From the NCBI GenBank assembly GCA_934716785.1, contig CAKUYM010000151.1, positions 1 to 9,821 on the forward strand: 9,821 nucleotides of DNA. The letters run 5' to 3'. Made by a program: the position numbers and the translations under genes. This document shows, one piece after another, positions 280 through 9,821 of this stretch. The notes beneath the pieces were generated by a model. That model ran no database searches. It saw only the letters and a program-made list of their open reading frames with translations, and was not told the DNA's origin. How positions within the stretch are numbered: position 1 is the first letter of the stretch; every line of letters starts with the position of its first letter. This DNA is from an uncultured Bacteroides sp. (GTDB lineage: Bacteria > Bacteroidota > Bacteroidia > Bacteroidales > Bacteroidaceae).

Positions 280-344
280 TTGCCCGAAACTGAATGATAA
301 TTGACAGGAACTTTGAATTATTAATTAAAACAGAATATAAGAAT

Positions 345-839
345 ATGAAAAAATTAGTCGTATTAGGAATGGGAATATGCTTGGTTTTGGCATTTACATC
401 TTGTAAATCCAGCGAGAGCGCCTATAAGAAAGCTTACGAGAAAGCAAAACAGCAGGAATTGGCGGAGCCGCAAGTAGAAGCTCCGGTAGAAGTGACTCCG
501 GTGGTTGCAGCTCCTGTGACAACGCCTAAAGCAGCAGATACGTCCGGTGTTCGTCAGGAAAAGGTTACGGTGGTTTCCGGCAATGAAGGATTGAAAGATT
601 ACAGTGTAGTGGTCGGCAGTTTCGGTGTGAAGGCTAATGCCGAAGGTCTGAAAGACTGGTTGGAAGCACAAGGATACCATCCTACTATCGCATTTAATGC
701 AGAGAAAGCAATGTATCGCGTGATTGTCAGCTCATTTGCCGATAAAGCCGCTGCAGTCGACGCTCGCAATGCATTCAAGGCTAAGTATCCGAGCCGTTCC
801 GATTTCCAAGGGGCTTGGTTGCTGTATCGTGTGTATTGA
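345..839 (+). CDS. SPOR-domain lipoprotein
   Basis: Product of 164 residues, probably an envelope lipoprotein. Residues 1-20 form a signal sequence of lipoprotein type: two lysines, a hydrophobic core, then FTSC with the lipidated cysteine at position 20. A Lys/Glu/Ala-rich stretch (about 25-40) and a Pro/Val-rich linker (41-62) lead to a C-terminal SPOR domain at about 84-163. This domain shows its two half-repeats (YSVVVGSF and YRVIVSSF, each followed by a helix rich in Ala and Lys). SPOR domains bind glycan strands of peptidoglycan lacking stem peptides, often at division sites, so a role in septation or wall remodelling is inferred. An in-frame ATG at 294 would add 17 residues before the signal peptide; the ATG at 345 is preferred because it puts the Lys-Lys motif at the N terminus. 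The gene stands alone, with its own promoter and terminator. Confidence 0.85.
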   Translation: MKKLVVLGMGICLVLAFTSCKSSESAYKKAYEKAKQQELAEPQVEAPVEVTPVVAAPVTTPKAADTSGVRQEKVTVVSGNEGLKDYSVVVGSFGVKANAEGLKDWLEAQGYHPTIAFNAEKAMYRVIVSSFADKAAAVDARNAFKAKYPSRSDFQGAWLLYRVY

Positions 840-1111: not shown

Positions 1112-1936
1112 ATGGAACAGAAGTATGCAATGGCTGCTATCAGTGCAGCATTAAAAGCCGGTGAAGAAATACTTTCTATCTATGAGGATCCGGCATCGGA
1201 TTTCGGGATAGAGAAGAAGGCAGACAACTCTCCGCTGACAATAGCAGACAGAAAGGCACATGAAACGATAGTGGCGGTTTTGAACAAGACTCCTTTTCCT
1301 ATCCTTAGCGAGGAAGGAAAACACTTGGACTACGGCATTCGTAGCAAGTGGGACACTTTGTGGATTGTAGACCCCTTGGATGGTACAAAGGAATTTATCA
1401 AACGAAACGGAGAGTTTACCGTGAATATCGCTTTGGTGAAAAATTCCGTACCGGTAATGGGAGTCATTTATGTGCCGGTGAAAAAAGAACTTTATTATGC
1501 CGTGGAAGGCGTGGGAGCTTATAAATATAGCGGCATCGGCAAGTTGGAAGGTGACGGAGTGTCACTGCAACAGTTGATGGAACATTCGGTGCGGATGCCG
1601 TCAAAGACTGTACGTGATCATTTTATCGTTGTGGCTTCCCGTTCGCATCTGTCACCTGAGACGAAAGATTACATTGCCGATTTGGAGAAGAAACAGAGTG
1701 GCATTGAATTGATCTCCAGTGGAAGTTCAATTAAGATTTGTTTAGTCGCAGACGGGATGGCTGATGTATATCCTCGTTTCGCTCCGACGATGGAGTGGGA
1801 TACCGCTGCCGGACATGCAATAGCACGTGCAGCAGGGATGGAAGTATATCAGGTCGGGAAGAACGAGCCTCTGCAGTACAATAAGGAGGATTTGTTGAAT
1901 CCGTGGTTTATCGTTGAGCCGATAAGAGAACATTAA
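1112..1936 (+). CDS. cysQ: 3'(2'),5'-bisphosphate nucleotidase CysQ (PAP phosphatase)
   Basis: Product of 274 residues, of normal length for CysQ. It belongs to the inositol monophosphatase superfamily of Mg2+-dependent, Li+-sensitive phosphatases. Metal-site motifs are all present: EE in SEEG at 66-69, DPLDGT at 87-92 (D87 and D90) and WDTAAGHA at 229-236 (D230). CysQ turns 3'-phosphoadenosine 5'-phosphate (PAP) into AMP and phosphate in the cytoplasm. PAP is what remains of PAPS after sulfo transfer and inhibits sulfotransferases, so placing this gene first in a unit that also encodes a sulfotransferase makes sense. The start ATG follows AAAGGA by 5 nt. The stop codon lies inside a 16-bp palindrome. 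No signal peptide is seen. Assignment to another member of the superfamily is unlikely given the cysC, cysD and cysN neighbours. Confidence 0.93.
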   Translation: MEQKYAMAAISAALKAGEEILSIYEDPASDFGIEKKADNSPLTIADRKAHETIVAVLNKTPFPILSEEGKHLDYGIRSKWDTLWIVDPLDGTKEFIKRNGEFTVNIALVKNSVPVMGVIYVPVKKELYYAVEGVGAYKYSGIGKLEGDGVSLQQLMEHSVRMPSKTVRDHFIVVASRSHLSPETKDYIADLEKKQSGIELISSGSSIKICLVADGMADVYPRFAPTMEWDTAAGHAIARAAGMEVYQVGKNEPLQYNKEDLLNPWFIVEPIREH

Positions 1937-1944
1937 TTAATGTT
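1929..1944. repeat. 16-bp palindrome across the cysQ stop codon
   Basis: AACATTAATTAATGTT is a perfect palindrome that contains the cysQ stop codon and ends 3 nt before the ATG of the permease gene. It is almost all A/T and would be only a weak RNA hairpin with no T run, so it is not called a terminator. It may be chance, or may influence translation at the junction. Confidence 0.4.
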
Positions 1945-1947
1945 TAT

Positions 1948-3501
1948 ATGACATTTGAAATTGTATTTGTATTATTATCTCTATTAGGAATGGTGGCTGC
2001 CTTGGTCGCAGACAAGATGCGCCCGGGCATGGTGCTTTTCTCGGTAGTGGTATTATTCTTATGTGTAGGTATTCTGACCCCCAAAGAGATGCTTGAAGGA
2101 TTCAGCAACAAAGGGATGATTACTGTTGCCTTGCTGTTCTTGGTCAGTGAAGGTATTCGCCAGTCGGGCACATTGGGGCAGGTGATAAAGGTGTTGCTGC
2201 CTCAAGGTAAGACAACAGTGTTCAAGGCACAGTTGCGTATTCTGCCTTCGGTCGCTTTTATCTCCGCTTTTTTGAATAATACTCCTGTTGTAGTCATATT
2301 CGCCCCGATTATCAAGCACTGGGCAAAATCAGTGAAGTTGCCAGCCACTAAGTTTCTGATACCACTTTCGTATGTCACTATTTTAGGTGGAATTTGTACG
2401 CTGATTGGTACATCTACCAATCTCGTGGTGCATGGGATGATATTGGAAGCCGGATTTGAAGGATTCTCGATGTTCGAGCTTGGAAAGGTGGGCATCTTTA
2501 TAGCGATTGCCGGCATTGTTTATCTTTTTATTTTCTCCAAACGCCTGTTGCCGGATGCGCGTCCGGATACGGCTGTGCCCGATGAGGATGTGGAAGAAGG
2601 AGAGAAGTTGCATCGGGTAGAGGCCGTTTTGGGTTCCCGTTTTCCCGGTATCAACAAGAATTTGAAAGAGTTTAATTTCCAACGCCATTACGGGGCTGAG
2701 GTGAAAGAAATCAAGACTCGCAGCGGACAGAGGTTCGTGACGAATCTGGAAGAAGTGGAACTTCACGAAGGCGATACGCTTGTGGTGATGGCGGATGATA
2801 CATTTATCCCGACGTGGGGAGAATCTTCCGTGTTTGTCCTGTTGACAAACGGAAATGAACCTGATACTACAGGAAAGAAAAAACGCTGGTTTGCCTTGCT
2901 ACTGTTGGTCTTGATGATTGTAGGTGCAACGGTGGGCGAACTTCCGGCCATCAAAGAGCTGTTTCCGGATGCCAAGCTGGATATGTTCTTTTTTGTTTCT
3001 ATTACTACGATAATCATGGCATGGACAAATCTGTTCCCCGCCCGTAAGTATACCAAATATATTTCGTGGGATATCCTGATAACTATCGCTTGTGCATTTG
3101 CTATCAGTAAGGCAATGGTGAATTCCGGTGTGGCCGATTGTGTGGCTAAGTTCATTATCGGGCTGAGTGATAATTACGGACCTCACGTATTGCTTGCCAT
3201 GCTGTTTCTCATCACGAATTTGTTTACGGAGTTGGTGACGAACAATGCGGCTGCCGCTTTGGCATTCCCCTTGGCACTGTCTATTGCCGCCCAGTTGGGG
3301 GTGAGCCCGACGCCTTTCTTCGTCGTGATCTGCATGGCTGCATCCGCCAGTTTCTCAACGCCTATCGGTTATCAGACAAATTTGATTGTGCAAGGTATCG
3401 GCAACTATAAGTTCATGGATTTCGTCCGCATCGGTCTGCCGCTTAATATCATTACTTTCTTAATCTCTGTTATTCTGATTCCGATGATCTGGAATTTTTA
3501 A
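1948..3501 (+). CDS. SLC13/DASS-family anion permease with a TrkA-C domain, probable sulfate transporter
   Basis: Inner-membrane protein of 517 residues. Hydrophobic segments fill about 1-45, 55-75, 95-125, 135-165 and 180-198, then a soluble insert, then about 313-330, 345-362, 372-392, 412-426 and 431-517. Inverted-repeat signature motifs of the SLC13/DASS (ArsB/NhaD-like) group are seen: NNTPVV at 110-115 with GTSTNL at 154-159, and TNNAAAA at 431-437 with STPIGYQTNL at 470-479. The insert (about 222-290, including LEEVELHEGDTLVVMADD) is a TrkA-C (RCK_C) domain, known in many bacterial family members. Such proteins usually carry two copies and run to about 600 residues; here only one is visible. 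The family moves sulfate or dicarboxylates, often with Na+. Position between cysQ and cysC points to sulfate. The exact substrate and coupling ion are inferred. Start 11 nt after the cysQ stop. Confidence 0.85.
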   Translation: MTFEIVFVLLSLLGMVAALVADKMRPGMVLFSVVVLFLCVGILTPKEMLEGFSNKGMITVALLFLVSEGIRQSGTLGQVIKVLLPQGKTTVFKAQLRILPSVAFISAFLNNTPVVVIFAPIIKHWAKSVKLPATKFLIPLSYVTILGGICTLIGTSTNLVVHGMILEAGFEGFSMFELGKVGIFIAIAGIVYLFIFSKRLLPDARPDTAVPDEDVEEGEKLHRVEAVLGSRFPGINKNLKEFNFQRHYGAEVKEIKTRSGQRFVTNLEEVELHEGDTLVVMADDTFIPTWGESSVFVLLTNGNEPDTTGKKKRWFALLLLVLMIVGATVGELPAIKELFPDAKLDMFFFVSITTIIMAWTNLFPARKYTKYISWDILITIACAFAISKAMVNSGVADCVAKFIIGLSDNYGPHVLLAMLFLITNLFTELVTNNAAAALAFPLALSIAAQLGVSPTPFFVVICMAASASFSTPIGYQTNLIVQGIGNYKFMDFVRIGLPLNIITFLISVILIPMIWNF

Positions 3502-3514
3502 TAAAACTATATAA

Positions 3515-4123
3515 ATGGAAGAAAAAAATCATATATATCCCATATTCGGCCGTATGATGACACGGCAGGATAAAGAGGAGCTTTTGGGACAGCATAGTGT
3601 GATGGTTTGGTTTACCGGACTGAGTGGCTCGGGCAAGAGCACGATTGCTATTGCGTTGGAGCGTGAGCTCCACAAGCGGGGGCTGCTTTGCCGTATCTTG
3701 GACGGAGACAATATTCGTAGCGGAATCAATAACAATCTGGGATTCTCCGCAGCCGACCGTGTAGAGAATATCCGCCGTATAGCCGAGGTGTCCAAGTTAT
3801 TCCTCGACAGCGGCATTATTACGATTGCCGCATTCATCAGTCCGAACAACGATATTCGTGAAATGGCTGCGAATATTATCGGCAAGGATGATTTTCTGGA
3901 GATTTTCGTAAGCACTCCGTTGGAAGAGTGCGAGAGGCGTGACGTAAAGGGATTGTATGCGAAAGCGCGGAAAGGGGAAATCCGGAACTTTACGGGAATT
4001 TCCGCTCCGTTTGAAGTCCCGGCGCATCCGGCTTTATCCTTGGATACCTCAAAATTGAGCCTTGAAGAATCGGTGAACCGTTTGTTGGAACTGATTCTGC
4101 CCAAAGTAAAAAAGAATGTTTAG
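3515..4123 (+). CDS. cysC: Adenylylsulfate kinase CysC (APS kinase)
   Basis: Product of 202 residues, the usual size of a stand-alone APS kinase. It phosphorylates the 3'-OH of APS with ATP to give PAPS, in the cytoplasm. Visible motifs: P-loop GLSGSGKST at 35-43, DGDN at 63-66 that contacts APS, NLGFS with DR..NIRR at 74-88, AFISP at 106-110, and the lid segment KGLYAKARKGEIRNFTGI at 145-162. The residues after FISP are NND rather than the more usual aromatic or His plus Arg, a small variation near the APS site. The N terminus (1-27) has the HIYPIFGRMMTRQDKEELLGQ type of lead-in common in CysC. The gene is separate from cysN, unlike the CysNC fusions of many proteobacteria. It starts 13 nt after the permease gene. 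Confidence 0.95.
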   Translation: MEEKNHIYPIFGRMMTRQDKEELLGQHSVMVWFTGLSGSGKSTIAIALERELHKRGLLCRILDGDNIRSGINNNLGFSAADRVENIRRIAEVSKLFLDSGIITIAAFISPNNDIREMAANIIGKDDFLEIFVSTPLEECERRDVKGLYAKARKGEIRNFTGISAPFEVPAHPALSLDTSKLSLEESVNRLLELILPKVKKNV

Positions 4124-4150
4124 TAGAAGAATAAAATCATTATTTTAGTA

Positions 4151-5059
4151 ATGGAAGAATATAGATTAAGCCATTTGAAGGAGCTCGAAGCAGAGTCTAT
4201 TCATATCATCCGCGAGGTGGCTGCGGAATTTGAGAATCCGGTAATGCTCTACAGCATCGGAAAGGATTCTTCGGTGATGGTGCGTCTGGCTGAAAAAGCG
4301 TTTTATCCGGGCAAGGTGCCATTTCCGTTGATGCACATCGATTCGAAATGGAAGTTTAAGGAGATGATTCAGTTTCGTGACGAATATGCAAAGAAATACG
4401 GATGGAATCTGATTGTAGAAAGCAACATGGAGGCTTTTAATGCAGGTGTGGGACCTTTCACGCATGGAAGCAAGGTGCATACAGACCTGATGAAGACACA
4501 GGCTTTGCTTCATGCGTTGGATAAATATAAATTTGATGCCGCATTCGGAGGTGCTCGTCGTGATGAGGAGAAGTCGCGTGCCAAAGAGCGCATCTTCTCG
4601 TTCCGCGATAAATTCCACCAGTGGGACCCGAAGAATCAGCGTCCTGAACTGTGGGATATCTACAATGCCCGCGTGCATAAGGGAGAAAGTATCCGTGTGT
4701 TCCCGTTGAGCAACTGGACGGAGCTGGACATCTGGCAGTATATCCGTCTGGAGAATATCCCCATTGTTCCGCTGTATTATGCCAAGGAACGTCCGGTAGT
4801 GAATATAGACGGCAATCTGATAATGGCGGATGATGACCGTCTGCCGGAAAAATATCGGGATAAGATTGAAATGAAGATGGTGCGTTTTCGTACGTTGGGC
4901 TGCTGGCCGCTGACCGGTGCAGTGGAAAGCAATGCATCTACGATTGAAGAGATCGTGGAAGAGATGATGACTACCACCAAGAGTGAGCGGACAACCCGTG
5001 TGATCGACTTCGATCAGGATGCGAGCATGGAACAAAAGAAACGTGAAGGATATTTTTAA
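4151..5059 (+). CDS. cysD: Sulfate adenylyltransferase subunit 2 CysD (ATP sulfurylase, PP-loop subunit)
   Basis: Product of 302 residues, matching the family length. CysD is the catalytic ATP pyrophosphatase-type subunit that joins sulfate to AMP from ATP, making APS and pyrophosphate, in complex with the GTPase CysN. The PP-loop is [10 protein letters not shown] at 34-43. [16 protein letters not shown] at 133-148 and [15 protein letters not shown] at 184-198 are hallmark CysD stretches that separate it from the related CysH reductase. The C terminus ([16 protein letters not shown]) is also typical. The ATG is preceded by an AT-only weak hairpin (4132-4147) and no clear Shine-Dalgarno site, which is common in Bacteroides. 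The next gene, cysN, follows after 12 nt, as expected for partners made in equal amounts. Confidence 0.96.
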
Positions 5060-5071
5060 TTGGAAATAGAA

Positions 5072-6532
5072 ATGGCAGATAATAAATTAGATATAAAGGC
5101 TTTTCTGGACAAGGATGAACAGAAAGACTTGCTGAGACTGTTGACCGCCGGTTCGGTAGACGATGGGAAATCAACGTTGATCGGACGCTTGCTGTTCGAC
5201 AGTAAGAAGTTGTATGAGGATCAGTTGGATGCATTGGAGCGTGATAGCAAACGTGTGGGCAATGCGGGCGAGCATATCGACTATGCATTGCTGCTCGACG
5301 GCTTGAAGGCAGAGCGTGAACAAGGTATTACAATTGACGTGGCTTATCGCTATTTCTCAACCAACGGGCGTAAGTTTATCATCGCGGATACTCCGGGGCA
5401 TGAGCAGTATACACGCAATATGATTACCGGTGGCTCTACGGCCAACTTAGCGATTATCCTCGTGGATGCCCGTATGGGAGTGATTACGCAGACACGCCGC
5501 CACACCTTCTTGGTCTCTTTACTTGGCATCAAGCATGTGGTGCTGGCTGTCAACAAGATGGACTTGGTGGACTTCTCGGAAGAACGTTTCAATGAAATCG
5601 TTGCGGAATATAAGAAGTTCGTGGCTCCGCTGGGAATTCCTGATGTAAACTGTATCCCTCTATCTGCATTGGATGGCGACAATGTCGTCGATTTATCAGA
5701 ACGCACTCCGTGGTATAAAGGAACTTCTTTATTGGATTTTCTGGAGACTGTCCATATCGACAACGACCATAACCTGACGGATTTCCGTTTCCCGGTTCAA
5801 TATGTGCTCCGCCCGAATCTGGACTTTAGAGGGTTCTGCGGCAAGGTGGCATCCGGTGTCATCCGTAAAGGAGATACGGTGATGGCACTTCCTTCAGGCA
5901 AGACATCGAAGGTGAAGAGCATCGTTACTTATGACGGGGAACTGGATTATGCTTTCCCGCCACAGTCTGTGACGCTGACGCTGGAAGATGAGATTGATGT
6001 GTCTCGTGGTGAAATGCTTGTACGTCCCGATAATCTGCCGATTATCGACCGCAACTTTGAAGCGATGATGGTGTGGATGGACGAAGAGCCGATGGATGTC
6101 AATAAATCGTTCTTTATCAAACAGACCACCAACTTGAGCCGTACGCGCATTGATGCAATCAAGTATAAAGTGGATGTGAACACGATGAAACATCTGTCTT
6201 TGGAAAACGGACAACTGACAAAAGAGACTTTGCCTTTGCAACTGAATCAGATTGCACGCGTGGTGCTGACCACCGCTAAGGAATTATTCTTTGATCCTTA
6301 TAAAAAGAACAAATCTTGCGGTTCGTTCATTCTGATTGACCCGATAACCAATAACACCTCAGCGGTGGGTATGATTATCGACCGGGTAGAGATGAAGGAT
6401 ATGAGCAATACGGATGATGTTCTCGTATTGGATCTGGCAAAGTTGGGAATCGAACCGGAACATTATGAAGCTATAGAAAAAGCGGTGAAAGACTTGGAAC
6501 GCCAGGGAGTTGCCGTGAAAATTGTAAAATAA
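5072..6532 (+). CDS. cysN: Sulfate adenylyltransferase subunit 1 CysN (GTPase subunit)
   Basis: Product of 486 residues from the ATG at 5072. CysN is an EF-Tu-like GTPase whose GTP hydrolysis drives APS formation by CysD. G motifs are complete: G1 GSVDDGKST at 27-35, switch I region around [11 protein letters not shown] at 85-95, G3 DTPGHEQY at 106-113, G4 NKMD at 161-164 and G5 SAL at 198-200. Beta-barrel domains 2 and 3 fill about 230-440. No APS kinase domain is fused at the C terminus; cysC is a separate gene upstream. A TTG at 5060, in the same frame right after the cysD stop, would add four residues (MEIE) and has AAGGA 9 nt upstream, so the start is not certain. The ATG is preferred because its N terminus agrees with the family. 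It is followed after 6 nt by the sulfotransferase gene. Confidence 0.94.
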
Positions 6533-6538
6533 GATAAT

Positions 6539-7645
6539 ATGGGATTACTCGAATTTAATAAACTTCCGATTAATACGCTGGTAGGTGCCGACTGGAAGAC
6601 GTTTAAGGCAATCACTGCCAATCGTGAAATTGATGCAGCTTATAAAGGCAAATACCGTTTGACAAAAGCTGTGTGCCGTCTGCTCTCTCCGTTGGCAGGA
6701 CTGCAAGATAGGCGGTATGAGAAGCTGCTGGTCGACCAACCGTTGGAACATGATCCGGTATTTATCCTGGGGCATTGGAGAAGCGGGACTACTTTTGTGC
6801 ATAATGTATTCTCCTGCGACAAGCACTTCGGATATAATACGACGTATCAGACCGTATTTCCTCATTTGATGATGTGGGGGCAGCCTTTCTTTAAAAAGAA
6901 TATGAGCTGGTTGATGCCGGACAAGCGCCCGACTGATAATATGGAGCTGGCTGTGGATCTTCCGCAAGAGGAAGAGTTCGCGTTGGCGAATATGATGCCA
7001 TATACATATTATAATTTTTGGTTCTTGCCGAAATATCAACAAGAGTATGCCGATAAGTATCTGTTGTTTGACGATATTACGGATGCCGAACTGAAAGTTT
7101 TTGAAGAAGTGTTTACGAAACTGATCAAGATTTCTTTGTGGAATACACACGGCACGCAGTTCCTCAGCAAGAATCCGCCGCACACGGGCAGGGTGAAGGA
7201 ACTGGTGAAAATGTTCCCGAACGCCAAGTTTATCTACCTGATGCGTAATCCGTACACTGTATTTGAATCGACACGCAGTTTCTTTACAAATACAATTCAA
7301 CCGCTGAAATTGCAGGATATAAGCAATGAACAATTAGAAGAGAATATTCTTTCTATATATGCAAAGCTTTACCATAAGTATGAATCGGACAAACAGTTTA
7401 TCCCGGAAGGGAACTTGATAGAAGTGAAGTTTGAAGATTTTGAAGCGGACGCGATGGGTATGACGGAGAATATTTATAAGTCTCTTTCCATCCCCGGATT
7501 TGCCGAAGCACGCGGAGATATAGAGAAGTACGTAGGTGGCAAGAAGGGGTACAAGAAAAATAAGTATAAGTATGATGACCGCACTATCCGGTTGGTAGAA
7601 GAGAACTGGGGCTTTGCTTTGAAACAGTGGGGTTATAATTTGTAA
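6539..7645 (+). CDS. PAPS-dependent sulfotransferase, likely steroid (cholesterol-type) sulfotransferase
   Basis: Product of 368 residues, cytoplasmic, with no signal peptide or membrane segment. The 5'-phosphosulfate loop is GHWRSGTT at 78-85 after the first beta strand (PVFIL). The 3'-phosphate site is FIYLMRNPYTVFESTRSFF at 231-249, with R236 and S244 in the expected positions. KNPPHTGRVKELVKMFPNAKF at 211-231 and a Lys-rich C-terminal stretch with NKYKYDDRTI at 341-350 resemble the large bacterial Sulfotransfer_3-type family. The enzyme transfers the sulfo group of PAPS to a hydroxyl or amine, releasing PAP. It starts 6 nt after cysN, so translation is probably coupled to PAPS supply. From memory, the B. 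thetaiotaomicron protein BT_0416, in a cluster of this kind, sulfonates cholesterol and related steroids; orthology here rests on synteny and is not proven. Other acceptors such as lipids or bile acid derivatives remain possible. Confidence 0.88.
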   Translation: MGLLEFNKLPINTLVGADWKTFKAITANREIDAAYKGKYRLTKAVCRLLSPLAGLQDRRYEKLLVDQPLEHDPVFILGHWRSGTTFVHNVFSCDKHFGYNTTYQTVFPHLMMWGQPFFKKNMSWLMPDKRPTDNMELAVDLPQEEEFALANMMPYTYYNFWFLPKYQQEYADKYLLFDDITDAELKVFEEVFTKLIKISLWNTHGTQFLSKNPPHTGRVKELVKMFPNAKFIYLMRNPYTVFESTRSFFTNTIQPLKLQDISNEQLEENILSIYAKLYHKYESDKQFIPEGNLIEVKFEDFEADAMGMTENIYKSLSIPGFAEARGDIEKYVGGKKGYKKNKYKYDDRTIRLVEENWGFALKQWGYNL

Positions 7646-7667
7646 GAAGAAAAAAGAAAGGAAAATA

Positions 7668-8636
7668 ATGATTCGGAAAATCGTTCGTCGCCTGTTGGTT
7701 ACAGGTTTTGTGGCATTTTTATCTTCCTTGTCTTTGATGGCGCAACACCGGGTGGAAATGCTTCCTTTCGGAGACATGGATCAGTGGATAGACCGTCAAA
7801 TAAAGGAGTCGGGTATTATCGGTGGAAATACAAAAAATGTATATGCGATAGGGCCTACATCTGTAATCAAGGGAGATCAGGTTTATAAGAATATGGGCGG
7901 ATCGCCTTGGGGAACGTCCAATGTGATGGCAAAGGTGGCAGGTATAACAAAGACCAATACCTCGGTTTTCCCGGAAAAGCGGGGAGACGGATACTGTGCG
8001 CGGTTGGATACACGCATGGAAAGCGTGAAGGTATTGGGGCTTGTCAATATTACGGTATTGGCGGCTGGCTCTATTTTTACCGGTTCGGTGCATGAACCGA
8101 TAAAAGGTACGAAGAATCCGCAGAAGATGCTACAGACGGGCATCCCGTTTACCAAGAGGCCGATTGCCCTTCAATTTGACTATAAGGTGAAGATGTCCGA
8201 CCGAGAGAACCGTATCCGCGCCACCGGTTTCAGCAAGATTACGGATGTGCCCGGCAAAGACTATCCGGCAGCTATCCTGTTCCTGCAGAAGCGTTGGGAA
8301 GATGCAGAAGGAAATGTGTATGCCAAGCGTATAGGTACGATGGTGACTTACTATTATCACTCCACAGACTGGAAGAATAACGCTTCTTATGAGATTATGT
8401 ATGGCGATATTACGGCTCGTCCTGAATATAAGGCCCATATGATGCGTTTGCAGGTGACCGAAAGCTATACGGTGAACAGCAAAGGTGAAAGTGTGCCTAT
8501 CCATGAGGTGGCGTGGGGAGATGAAAATGATGTGCCGACTCACATGTGTCTTCAGTTTACATCCAGCCATGGAGGTGCTTATATCGGTTCGCCGGGGAAT
8601 ACATTGTGGATTGATAATGTGAAATTGGTGTATTAG
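7668..8636 (+). CDS. Exported PCMD-like beta-sandwich protein of unknown function
   Basis: Product of 322 residues. Residues 1-25 form a signal peptide (IRKIVRR, a hydrophobic core, then SLMA before Q26), cleaved by signal peptidase I; no lipobox cysteine follows. The mature part resembles the Bacteroidetes PCMD domain (putative carbohydrate metabolism domain), with LAAGSIFTGSV at 131-141, PFTKRPIALQFDYK at 160-173 and a C-terminal SSHGGAYIGSPGNTLWIDNV at 299-318. That ending is typical of this jelly-roll fold, where a small residue pattern precedes a strand with a conserved Asp. No catalytic motif can be named. AAAGGA lies just before the ATG, and the gene follows the sulfotransferase by 22 nt with no terminator between. 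A periplasmic or surface role linked to the sulfonated product or its acceptor is inferred from position only. The name of the domain does not prove carbohydrate binding. Confidence 0.75.
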   Translation: MIRKIVRRLLVTGFVAFLSSLSLMAQHRVEMLPFGDMDQWIDRQIKESGIIGGNTKNVYAIGPTSVIKGDQVYKNMGGSPWGTSNVMAKVAGITKTNTSVFPEKRGDGYCARLDTRMESVKVLGLVNITVLAAGSIFTGSVHEPIKGTKNPQKMLQTGIPFTKRPIALQFDYKVKMSDRENRIRATGFSKITDVPGKDYPAAILFLQKRWEDAEGNVYAKRIGTMVTYYYHSTDWKNNASYEIMYGDITARPEYKAHMMRLQVTESYTVNSKGESVPIHEVAWGDENDVPTHMCLQFTSSHGGAYIGSPGNTLWIDNVKLVY

Positions 8637-8816: not shown

Positions 8817-9821
8817 ATGAAAAAGGGTTTATTGTTTGTTTTATTGGCAGCGGCTTCAGTCAGTCTGTCTGCTCAAGAAAAAGAAAACACTAAAAAAAGC
8901 TACCGGGTAGAGACAAATCTCTTTGGCGCTAATTGGTTTGTCAGTGGTGGAATTGGTGCACAGATGTACTTTGGAGATAATGACAGCAAAGCAAGTTTTG
9001 GAAAAAGACTCGCTCCGGCACTTGATATCTCTGTAGGTAAGTGGTTTACTCCGGGTATCGGATTGCGCGTGTCTTATAATGGTCTTCAAGCTAAAGGTGC
9101 AACACCGGATGCTGGTGACGTTTATGTAAAGGGCGGTACTTTTTCTAATGGTTATTACAAGCAAAAATGGAATCTTGCAAACTTCCACGGTGATGTAATG
9201 CTTAACCTTTCCAATATGCTTTGCGGCTACAATGAAGAACGTGTTTACTCGTTCATTCCTTATGCAGGAGCCGGACTTGTACACTCATGGAGCGACCCGA
9301 AAGAAAACAACCTGGGTTTGAATCTTGGTTTGATCAACCGTTTCCGTCTTTCTTCAGCATGGGATCTTAACGTAGAGTTGCGTGGGCTGTTGATGAAGAA
9401 CGCTTTCGGTGGTGCAAGCAAAGAAGGTATGGCTGGTCTGACTGTAGGCGTGACTTACAAGTTCAAGAAACGTGGTTGGGAAGCTGTTCCTACTGTGCCG
9501 ATGGTGCCGGAAAGCCAGTTGAACGATATGAGAAATACTCTGAACTCTTTGAAGAGCGAAAACGAATCTCTGAAGCGTGAGTTGGTTGATGCACGTAACA
9601 AGAAACCGGAAGTTATCGTTCAGAAAGAAGCCGGCTTTGTTCCGCGTCTTGTTGTCGTATTCAATATCGGCAAGAGCAACATCAGCAAGAGAGAATACAT
9701 GAATATCGAAGCTATGGCTAAGGGTATTAAAGAAAACCCGAACAAGGTATTTACTGTAACGGGATATGCTGACCAAGGCACCGGTTCTGCCGAGTACAAC
9801 ATGAAGTTGAGTAAGAAGAGA
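8817..9821 (+). CDS. OmpA-family outer membrane porin (3' end beyond window)
   Basis: An open frame of 335 codons from ATG 8817 runs to the window edge without a stop. Residues 1-19 are a signal peptide ending SLSA before Q20. About 25-220 alternate as in an outer-membrane beta-barrel, with paired aromatic and Gly-rich strands (TNLFGANWFVSGGIG, FIPYAGAGLVHSW). A Pro-rich hinge at 224-231 leads to a short coiled coil at 234-260, with hydrophobic heptad residues L235, M238, L242, L245, L252, L256 and A259. A C-terminal OmpA-like peptidoglycan-binding domain starts near 268 (VVVFNIGKSNISKREY) and shows TGYADQGTGSAEYNMKLSKKR at the edge. Bacteroidetes porins of this kind have about 380-400 residues, so some 50 are missing. 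Codon use is strongly biased (CGT, GGT, AAC, GAA), unlike the operon before it, which suggests high expression. It has its own promoter. It anchors the outer membrane to the wall. Confidence 0.92.
   Translation, partial: MKKGLLFVLLAAASVSLSAQEKENTKKSYRVETNLFGANWFVSGGIGAQMYFGDNDSKASFGKRLAPALDISVGKWFTPGIGLRVSYNGLQAKGATPDAGDVYVKGGTFSNGYYKQKWNLANFHGDVMLNLSNMLCGYNEERVYSFIPYAGAGLVHSWSDPKENNLGLNLGLINRFRLSSAWDLNVELRGLLMKNAFGGASKEGMAGLTVGVTYKFKKRGWEAVPTVPMVPESQLNDMRNTLNSLKSENESLKRELVDARNKKPEVIVQKEAGFVPRLVVVFNIGKSNISKREYMNIEAMAKGIKENPNKVFTVTGYADQGTGSAEYNMKLSKKR

Follow-up and report, generated by a model that had tools for sequence, protein, structure and literature searches.

The 9,821-nucleotide stretch of DNA analysed here (the window), from an uncultured Bacteroides sp., carries nine genes, all on the plus strand, and six of these, cysQ, a transporter gene, cysC, cysD, cysN and a sulfotransferase gene (ST), make up a cassette at 1112-7645. 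We consider it likely, from gene content and distribution, that the six genes would import sulfate, make 3'-phosphoadenosine 5'-phosphosulfate (PAPS), sulfonate a steroid-like alcohol and recycle 3'-phosphoadenosine 5'-phosphate (PAP), probably together with a predicted, unlinked outer-membrane barrel of the Omp85 type, Omp85-A. The DNA is that of a Bacteroides, and the closest among the relatives compared is B. congonensis (L002; 87% over 9.66 kb). Gene calls come from a scan of all nine genes with Pfam and NCBIfam profiles at curated cut-offs, and those of the cassette, including the enzymes acting on adenosine 5'-phosphosulfate (APS), are as follows.

1112..1936, plus strand: cysQ, 3'(2'),5'-bisphosphate nucleotidase, predicted PAP recycling (TIGR01331 264 bits, cut-off 229)
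1948..3501, plus strand: DASS/CitMHS-type membrane transporter, predicted sulfate importer (PF03600 206 bits, PF00939 53 bits)
3515..4123, plus strand: cysC, APS kinase (TIGR00455 235 bits, cut-off 139; NF003013 248, cut-off 163)
4151..5059, plus strand: cysD, sulfate adenylyltransferase small subunit (TIGR02039 508 bits, cut-off 397)
5072..6532, plus strand: cysN, sulfate adenylyltransferase GTPase subunit (TIGR02034 601 bits, cut-off 336; NF003478 717, cut-off 590)
6539..7645, plus strand: ST, PAPS-dependent sulfotransferase, Sulfotransfer_3 family, BT_0416 type (PF13469 144 bits, cut-off 27)

The CysQ translation contains DPLDGTKEF, which we take to be the metal site, and that of CysC contains GLSGSGKST, presumably the Walker A motif. 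ST belongs to the Sulfotransfer_3 family by its profile, its PAPS-binding loops and its fold, and had no NCBIfam match in the profile scan. An identity of the cysD product as the PAPS reductase CysH was rejected (TIGR00434 43 bits, cut-off 165). The cysN gene is read from the ATG at 5072, 12 bases past the cysD stop, rather than from the TTG at 5060 given in the open reading frame list, and with this start the intergenic gaps within the six-gene set are 6-27 bases.

The six-gene cassette and its flanks

The preliminary description of this DNA had reported seven adjacent co-directional open reading frames at 1112-8636, which are present as described, and had read all seven as a sulfonation cassette. 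The profile families bear this out for the six genes at 1112-7645, but the seventh, a PCMD-domain gene, has no known step in sulfonation and is by position a flank. Among the best 80 of 291 related loci all six genes are found in 72, with identical order and strand in 72 of 72; six of the other eight are cut by a contig end, and two (L063 and L076) carry ST alone of the six. Outside the cassette lie three further genes.

294..839, plus strand: SPOR-domain gene, lipoprotein-like by eye, upstream flank (PF05036 45.5 bits)
7668..8636, plus strand: PCMD-domain protein, predicted secreted, conserved neighbour (PF13201 93 bits)
8817..9821, plus strand: OmpA-family protein, downstream flank, cut by the window end (PF00691 33 bits)

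In 57 of the 72 complete loci PCMD comes no more than 700 bases after ST (L062, among the other 15, ends there), and 46 of the 57 also have SPOR within 5 kb before cysQ. SPOR adjoins PCMD with no cassette between them in 9 of 20 fetched PCMD neighbourhoods (L158-L161, L164, L165, L170-L172), and PCMD is for this reason placed outside the cassette. The SPOR-PCMD gap in L170 and L171 is about 1 kb with small open reading frames only, and L170, L171 and L172 derive from the ST-negative genomes G010, G075 and G055. Further out, six cassette-free loci (L159, L161, L165, L170, L171 and L172) share their surroundings with Bacteroides that carry the cassette, for example L001: upstream comes a small membrane protein, holin-like but scoring below the threshold, and downstream are genes for RuvX, peptide deformylase, a TPR protein and threonyl-tRNA synthetase. 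In Bacteroides, then, the six genes form a separate block that occupies a SPOR/PCMD site, by insertion or loss, and this boundary defines the gene set to move for heterologous tests.

The cassette is also found at other sites, after an Omp85-family gene in Phocaeicola vulgatus (L030), P. massiliensis (L028) and the relatives L012 and L047, and the coordinates place carB about 1.7 kb upstream of cysC in at least 11 genomes of more distant relatives. A close OmpA orthologue adjoins PCMD in L001-L006, L009, L010 and L035, and many relatives differ at this place. A scan of the phylum gave an ST match in 27 of 392 genomes, three at 77-97% identity, five long at 26-36% and 19 weak.

The eight genes from SPOR to PCMD were compared with four close relatives, and the ratios of nonsynonymous to synonymous divergence (dN/dS), rough values since several dS exceed 1, range from 0.010 to 0.102, indicating strong purifying selection. 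ST is at 0.010-0.023 and the transporter, cysC, cysD, cysN and ST together at 0.010-0.030, with cysQ at 0.046-0.093 and PCMD at 0.019-0.043. A strict Bacteroides-type promoter pattern had two plus-strand matches in the window where 0.42 would be expected, none of them upstream of cysQ, and was found upstream of cysQ in just 3 of 69 relatives, so the promoter idea was dropped. An Rfam scan at the gathering threshold gave no matches.

Some loci depart from this arrangement. In Candidatus Bacteroides intestinavium (L063:10001-12166) and Prevotella sp. MGM2 (L076:10001-11104) the ST gene has no PAPS genes in the 10 kb upstream. Genomes G141 and G089 (L154:5763-9749, L155:8663-12637) carry a gene of 1,328 and 1,324 amino acids, respectively, between cysD and cysN, with DUF4011, AAA and REase_MTES_1575 domains, a helicase-nuclease of defence-like make-up. 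An MBOAT acyltransferase gene and a 316-amino-acid gene without a Pfam family occupy the same place in G021 (L137:4088-6726), where the sulfotransferase lies 8 kb away on the opposite strand. The idea that genes interposed between cysD and cysN in these three genomes encode substrate-specific enzymes was rejected, as a helicase-nuclease and an MBOAT acyltransferase share no common theme.

PAPS synthesis and the predicted sulfonated product

None of the nine genes scanned is cysH, cysI or cysJ, in agreement with the earlier observation that the window holds no genes for reducing PAPS or sulfite. The preliminary description had named as evidence to the contrary a low identity to the steroid sulfotransferase together with such genes just outside the window. 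Such genes were looked for in eight named relatives hand-picked from the 80 loci, and neither CysH over its cut-off nor a sulfite/nitrite reductase domain (NIR_SIR) was found in any of the eight. The search was extended to a draw of 151 genomes of the family, with a completeness of 90% requested, of which 57 are ST-positive and 94 ST-negative. APS kinase is present in 58 of these, or 57 when a 22-bit match in G054 is set aside, as was done before all counts. ST and APS kinase occur together in 56 genomes, with ST alone in G052 and APS kinase alone in G032. Neither CysH over its cut-off nor NIR_SIR was found in any of the 57 ST-positive genomes. Each was found in 4 of the 151, six genomes in all, and none of the six has ST or APS kinase. 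CysD and CysN of three of the six (G085, G105 and G026) look like a different lineage, since they are 48-50% identical to those of the window. CysH matches in ST-positive genomes reach at most 68 bits against the cut-off of 165, and some of them are the cassette's own cysD, as in G001.

The pairing of ST with APS kinase is not merely a matter of linkage, because both are kept in five genomes (G136, G082, G057, G041 and G021) in which cysC lies 13-20 kb from ST or on another contig. It is also upheld on a carB tree of 107 of the 151 genomes, those with an orthologous carB among the matches listed, a marker that is not fully neutral, being close to the cassette in 11 genomes or more. APS kinase changes the same way as ST in 8.9 of 9 independent pairs differing in ST, and in none the opposite way (p 0.004). 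This pairing, which holds in 56 of 57 genomes each way, strengthens the earlier proposal of a dedicated product for which PAPS is made. Sulfotransfer is the likely sink of PAPS, since the search of ST-positive relatives turned up neither CysH nor a sulfite reductase, and the near one-to-one pairing together with the lack of a reductase in them suggests that PAPS synthesis in this family exists for sulfonation. This would make cysC usable as a genome marker for sulfonation in the family.

Two side observations concern PAPS metabolism outside the cassette. Genome G032 (L136:7553-11293) has a TauE-type gene, cysD and a single-frame cysN-cysC without ST, a second PAPS-making design in the genus. 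In B. salyersiae (L081:1501-2043) an 839-amino-acid open frame gives a PAPS-reductase-like match that, at 57 bits, falls short of the 165 required for CysH, and long frames of this kind recur in the family draw.

A product has been described for a cluster of this type. BT_0416 of B. thetaiotaomicron turns cholesterol into cholesterol sulfate in Escherichia coli and in vitro, B. thetaiotaomicron loses the activity when the gene is deleted, and BT_0416 affects cholesterol sulfate in mice; labelled microbial cholesterol sulfate was seen in portal vein blood (PMC9417993). The same report describes Bt_0411-Bt_0415 beside Bt_0416 as putative PAPS genes, finds Bt_0412 and Bt_0416 induced by cholesterol, and notes that B. 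ovatus and B. fragilis possess identical clusters (PMC9417993). The cluster sulfonates further steroids, e.g. isoallolithocholic acid, and B. thetaiotaomicron sulfonates dehydroepiandrosterone (PMC11271093, citing Yao et al. 2022). A homologous cluster with a cholesterol-induced BT_0416 homologue is reported from B. dorei YGMCC0564 (PMC10666794). The link to BT_0416 and steroid sulfonation, drawn in the preliminary description, was therefore right, as was its supposition that the core of the cassette is known. Among the named relatives compared, the window ST is 95% identical to that of B. faecis, 90% to that of B. fragilis and 89% to that of P. vulgatus.

In the pathway that we propose, sulfate would enter via the DASS/CitMHS-type transporter, CysDN would make APS and CysC PAPS, reactions predicted from families that the profiles establish. 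ST would then sulfonate a hydrophobic alcohol, as BT_0416 does with cholesterol (PMC9417993), and CysQ would remove PAP. Product or substrate may cross the outer membrane via Omp85-A, as judged from its co-occurrence with ST and its place upstream of cysQ in Phocaeicola.

Sterols may instead be opportunistic substrates, the native one being an endogenous envelope lipid (or glycan) that is sulfonated and displayed on the outer membrane, with PCMD and Omp85-A as parts of the envelope. We regard this as a real possibility, somewhat short of even. It sits uneasily with the induction of Bt_0412 and Bt_0416 by cholesterol and with the cholesterol sulfate made by BT_0416 in vitro and affected by it in mice (PMC9417993), and a shared fold indicates no substrate.

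PCMD and the predicted Omp85-A barrel

The PCMD protein has a signal-like N-terminus, as read by eye. Its orthologues, defined as long matches with E <1e-70 and at least 40% identity, are present in 64 of the 151 genomes, 55 of the 57 ST-positive and 9 of the 94 ST-negative. By coordinates PCMD is adjacent to ST in 12 of the 55 and not adjacent in 43. PCMD and ST change the same way in 5.9 of 9 independent pairs on the carB tree, in none the opposite way and with no difference in 3.1 (p 0.03). It is accordingly conceivable that PCMD belongs to the cassette functionally and is more than a neighbour, although we lean against this. Its presence in so many ST-positive genomes away from ST, the direction of the independent pairs and the joint retention of ST and PCMD in L063, with no PAPS genes nearby, speak for membership, whereas the nine ST-negative genomes that retain PCMD (including G010 and G075, with 81% identical copies, G055 and G077), the 3.1 pairs without difference and the nine loci in which it adjoins SPOR without a cassette speak against it. 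By position we treat PCMD as a neighbour; the evidence that it shares a role with ST is moderate, and the genome-wide association means that it may have an envelope role. A function could not be assigned from structure, as the model has a mean pLDDT (predicted local distance difference test) of 60 and the fold matches are too weak, those under E 0.001 being six chains of four crystal structures of putative glycoside hydrolases with query template modelling (TM) scores of 0.36-0.38. A literature search on PCMD with Bacteroides gave nothing on topic, as far as titles listed and the beginnings of abstracts tell.

In P. vulgatus the gene upstream of cysQ encodes a 414-amino-acid Omp85-domain protein (PF01103 38 bits, no other domain), and its stop codon runs into the earliest possible start codon of cysQ (TAATG); the CysQ match itself sets in 15 bases further on. 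The genes at L030:3275-4519 and L283:6755-7966 match PF01103 alone (38 and 44 bits, cut-off 24), which corresponds to an Omp85 barrel without POTRA domains. Close relatives of the P. vulgatus gene, at 57-94% identity, are here called Omp85-A, and matches of at most 35% identity were counted as a paralogue, Omp85-B. In L299 and L300, too, the gene that precedes cysQ on its strand is Omp85-A.

In the family draw Omp85-A is present in 21 of the 57 ST-positive and none of the 94 ST-negative genomes. The genus was surveyed with the B. finegoldii Omp85-A as query in 95 Bacteroides genomes, 64 ST-positive (counting G568, whose ST is split by a frame break) and 31 ST-negative. As raw genome counts, Omp85-A occurs in 62 of the 64 and in one of the 31 (G609), and unbroken copies in 57 of 64 as against 0 of 31. 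The copies in five ST-positive genomes (G551, G568, G582, G585 and G008) are broken; for G568, with its broken ST, and G008, with broken cysD and PCMD, this suggests assembly errors, because other genes there are also broken. Omp85-A and ST share a contig in 19 of the 62 genomes, with a distance between them that is never below 85 kb; they are on different contigs in the other 43, where closeness is possible. On these grounds we propose that Omp85-A may carry substrate or product across the outer membrane. Within the literature library searched no paper tying a sulfotransferase to Omp85 in Bacteroides was found, and the association of Omp85-A with ST is in this sense new.

Three side observations belong here. 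G609 has no ST, and its Omp85-A (L303:6083-7300) has an internal stop, as if decaying after loss of the cassette. In eight distant family members (L156, L157, L162, L163, L166, L168, L173 and L175) PCMD adjoins an Omp85-B gene with 27-31% identity to Omp85-A, a hint that PCMD and barrel may form a pair. The neighbourhoods of Omp85-A gave no functional theme, as they hold subunits of the NQR complex, peptidases and other unrelated genes.

Several points weigh against a six-gene sulfonation pathway served by Omp85-A. Activity, substrate and transport are predicted from sequence, and we infer both the lack of cysH and the presence of Omp85-A in the window's own genome from relatives. Sulfate is uncertain as the substrate of the transporter, because this protein, although above the cut-offs of both PF03600 and PF00939 (27 for the latter), scores 92 bits with the NCBIfam DASS model TIGR00785, below the cut-off of 199. 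Three genomes (G551, G582 and G585) have an unbroken ST with a broken Omp85-A, and G086 and G589 in the genus are ST-positive without it, as are 36 of the 57 ST-positive family genomes, 27 of which have STs of at most 72% identity. Omp85-A sits in unrelated neighbourhoods, and membrane-protein assembly has been suggested for bare Omp85 barrels (PMC4104836). Omp85-B, intended as a control in the same search, is itself associated with ST (37 of 64 ST-positive against 6 of 31 ST-negative genomes, p 0.0004), though more weakly (odds 5.7 vs 930 for Omp85-A). The genus counts are not corrected for the tree, and on the carB tree support for Omp85-A is weak: of the 5 supported pairs differing in Omp85-A, 4.7 agree with ST in direction (p 0.06), or 2.8 of 3 when cassette-adjoining genomes and their ST-negative sisters are left out. 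Starting from the differences in ST, Omp85-A agrees in 4.0 of 9 pairs, with no difference in 5.0 (median p 0.125). The tree-corrected pairs thus agree in direction and are too few for significance.

The association could reflect shared ancestry, if Omp85-A and ST are both frequent within a single section of Bacteroides and Phocaeicola and disappeared together, whether by chance or through genome reduction. The few independent changes (six for Omp85-A on the 107-genome tree), the failure of every Omp85-A sign test on the carB tree to reach 0.05, the enrichment of Omp85-B in ST-positive genomes and the small size of many ST-negative genomes would be expected from it. We nevertheless think it unlikely, since 62 of 64 against one of 31 was obtained although 85 kb or more separates the two genes in the 19 shared-contig genomes, ST-positive genomes of 2.5-2.7 Mb (G596, G581, G597 and G599) retain both, the Omp85-B association is far weaker, and the adjacency of Omp85-A and cassette in Phocaeicola is separate support.

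The reading that we favour remains the sulfonation cassette with its candidate barrel. More tentatively, and with slightly less than even confidence, there may be an envelope-spanning system for sulfonation and export in which the cassette is the cytoplasmic half, Omp85-A a dedicated outer-membrane conduit for a sulfonated lipid or a sterol substrate and PCMD a secreted partner, all kept or lost as one unit though far apart. The portions of PMC9417993 available to us name no route for sterol or sterol sulfate across the outer membrane, and Omp85-A is a single, deletable candidate gene for this step.

Comparison with known systems

Assimilatory sulfate reduction operons (cysDNC with cysH and cysIJ) have CysD, CysN, CysC and CysQ in common with the window and differ in their PAPS reductase and sulfite reductase, neither of which is found in the window, where a sulfotransferase stands in their place. 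That the PAPS genes feed such a pathway, with cysH and a sulfite reductase elsewhere and ST as a side user, is highly improbable and was rejected for the relatives searched: cysD, cysN and cysC are classical assimilation genes and reductases do occur in the family, but none was found in the 57 ST-positive genomes or the eight named relatives, and the six genomes with CysH or NIR_SIR are without APS kinase.

The mycobacterial sulfotransferases STF9 (2z6v) and STF1 (2zq5) are 16% identical to ST, which permits no substrate inference. Omp85-A resembles the noNterm Omp85 subfamily in being a bare Omp85 domain of about 400 amino acids without other Pfam domains; membrane-protein biogenesis was suggested for that subfamily (PMC4104836), and the link to sulfonation is new here.

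The B. dorei YGMCC0564 cluster has the same enzymes as the window cassette (PMC10666794), and in its relative P. vulgatus the cassette comes after mutL and Omp85-A and, unlike that of the window, is not flanked by PCMD. No mention of BT_0417 was found within the literature library searched. A close counterpart is Bt_0411-Bt_0416 (Le et al. 2022, PMC9417993), with the same adjacent gene kinds, a sulfate importer, PAPS-synthesis genes and a sulfotransferase. Neither PCMD nor an Omp85 barrel came up in the portions of that report available to us, the species differs from that of the window, and the activity of the window cassette is a prediction. With its adjacent PAP phosphatase, predicted sulfate importer, APS kinase, CysD, CysN and ST, the window cassette is a member of this published cluster type, and the core finding is known.

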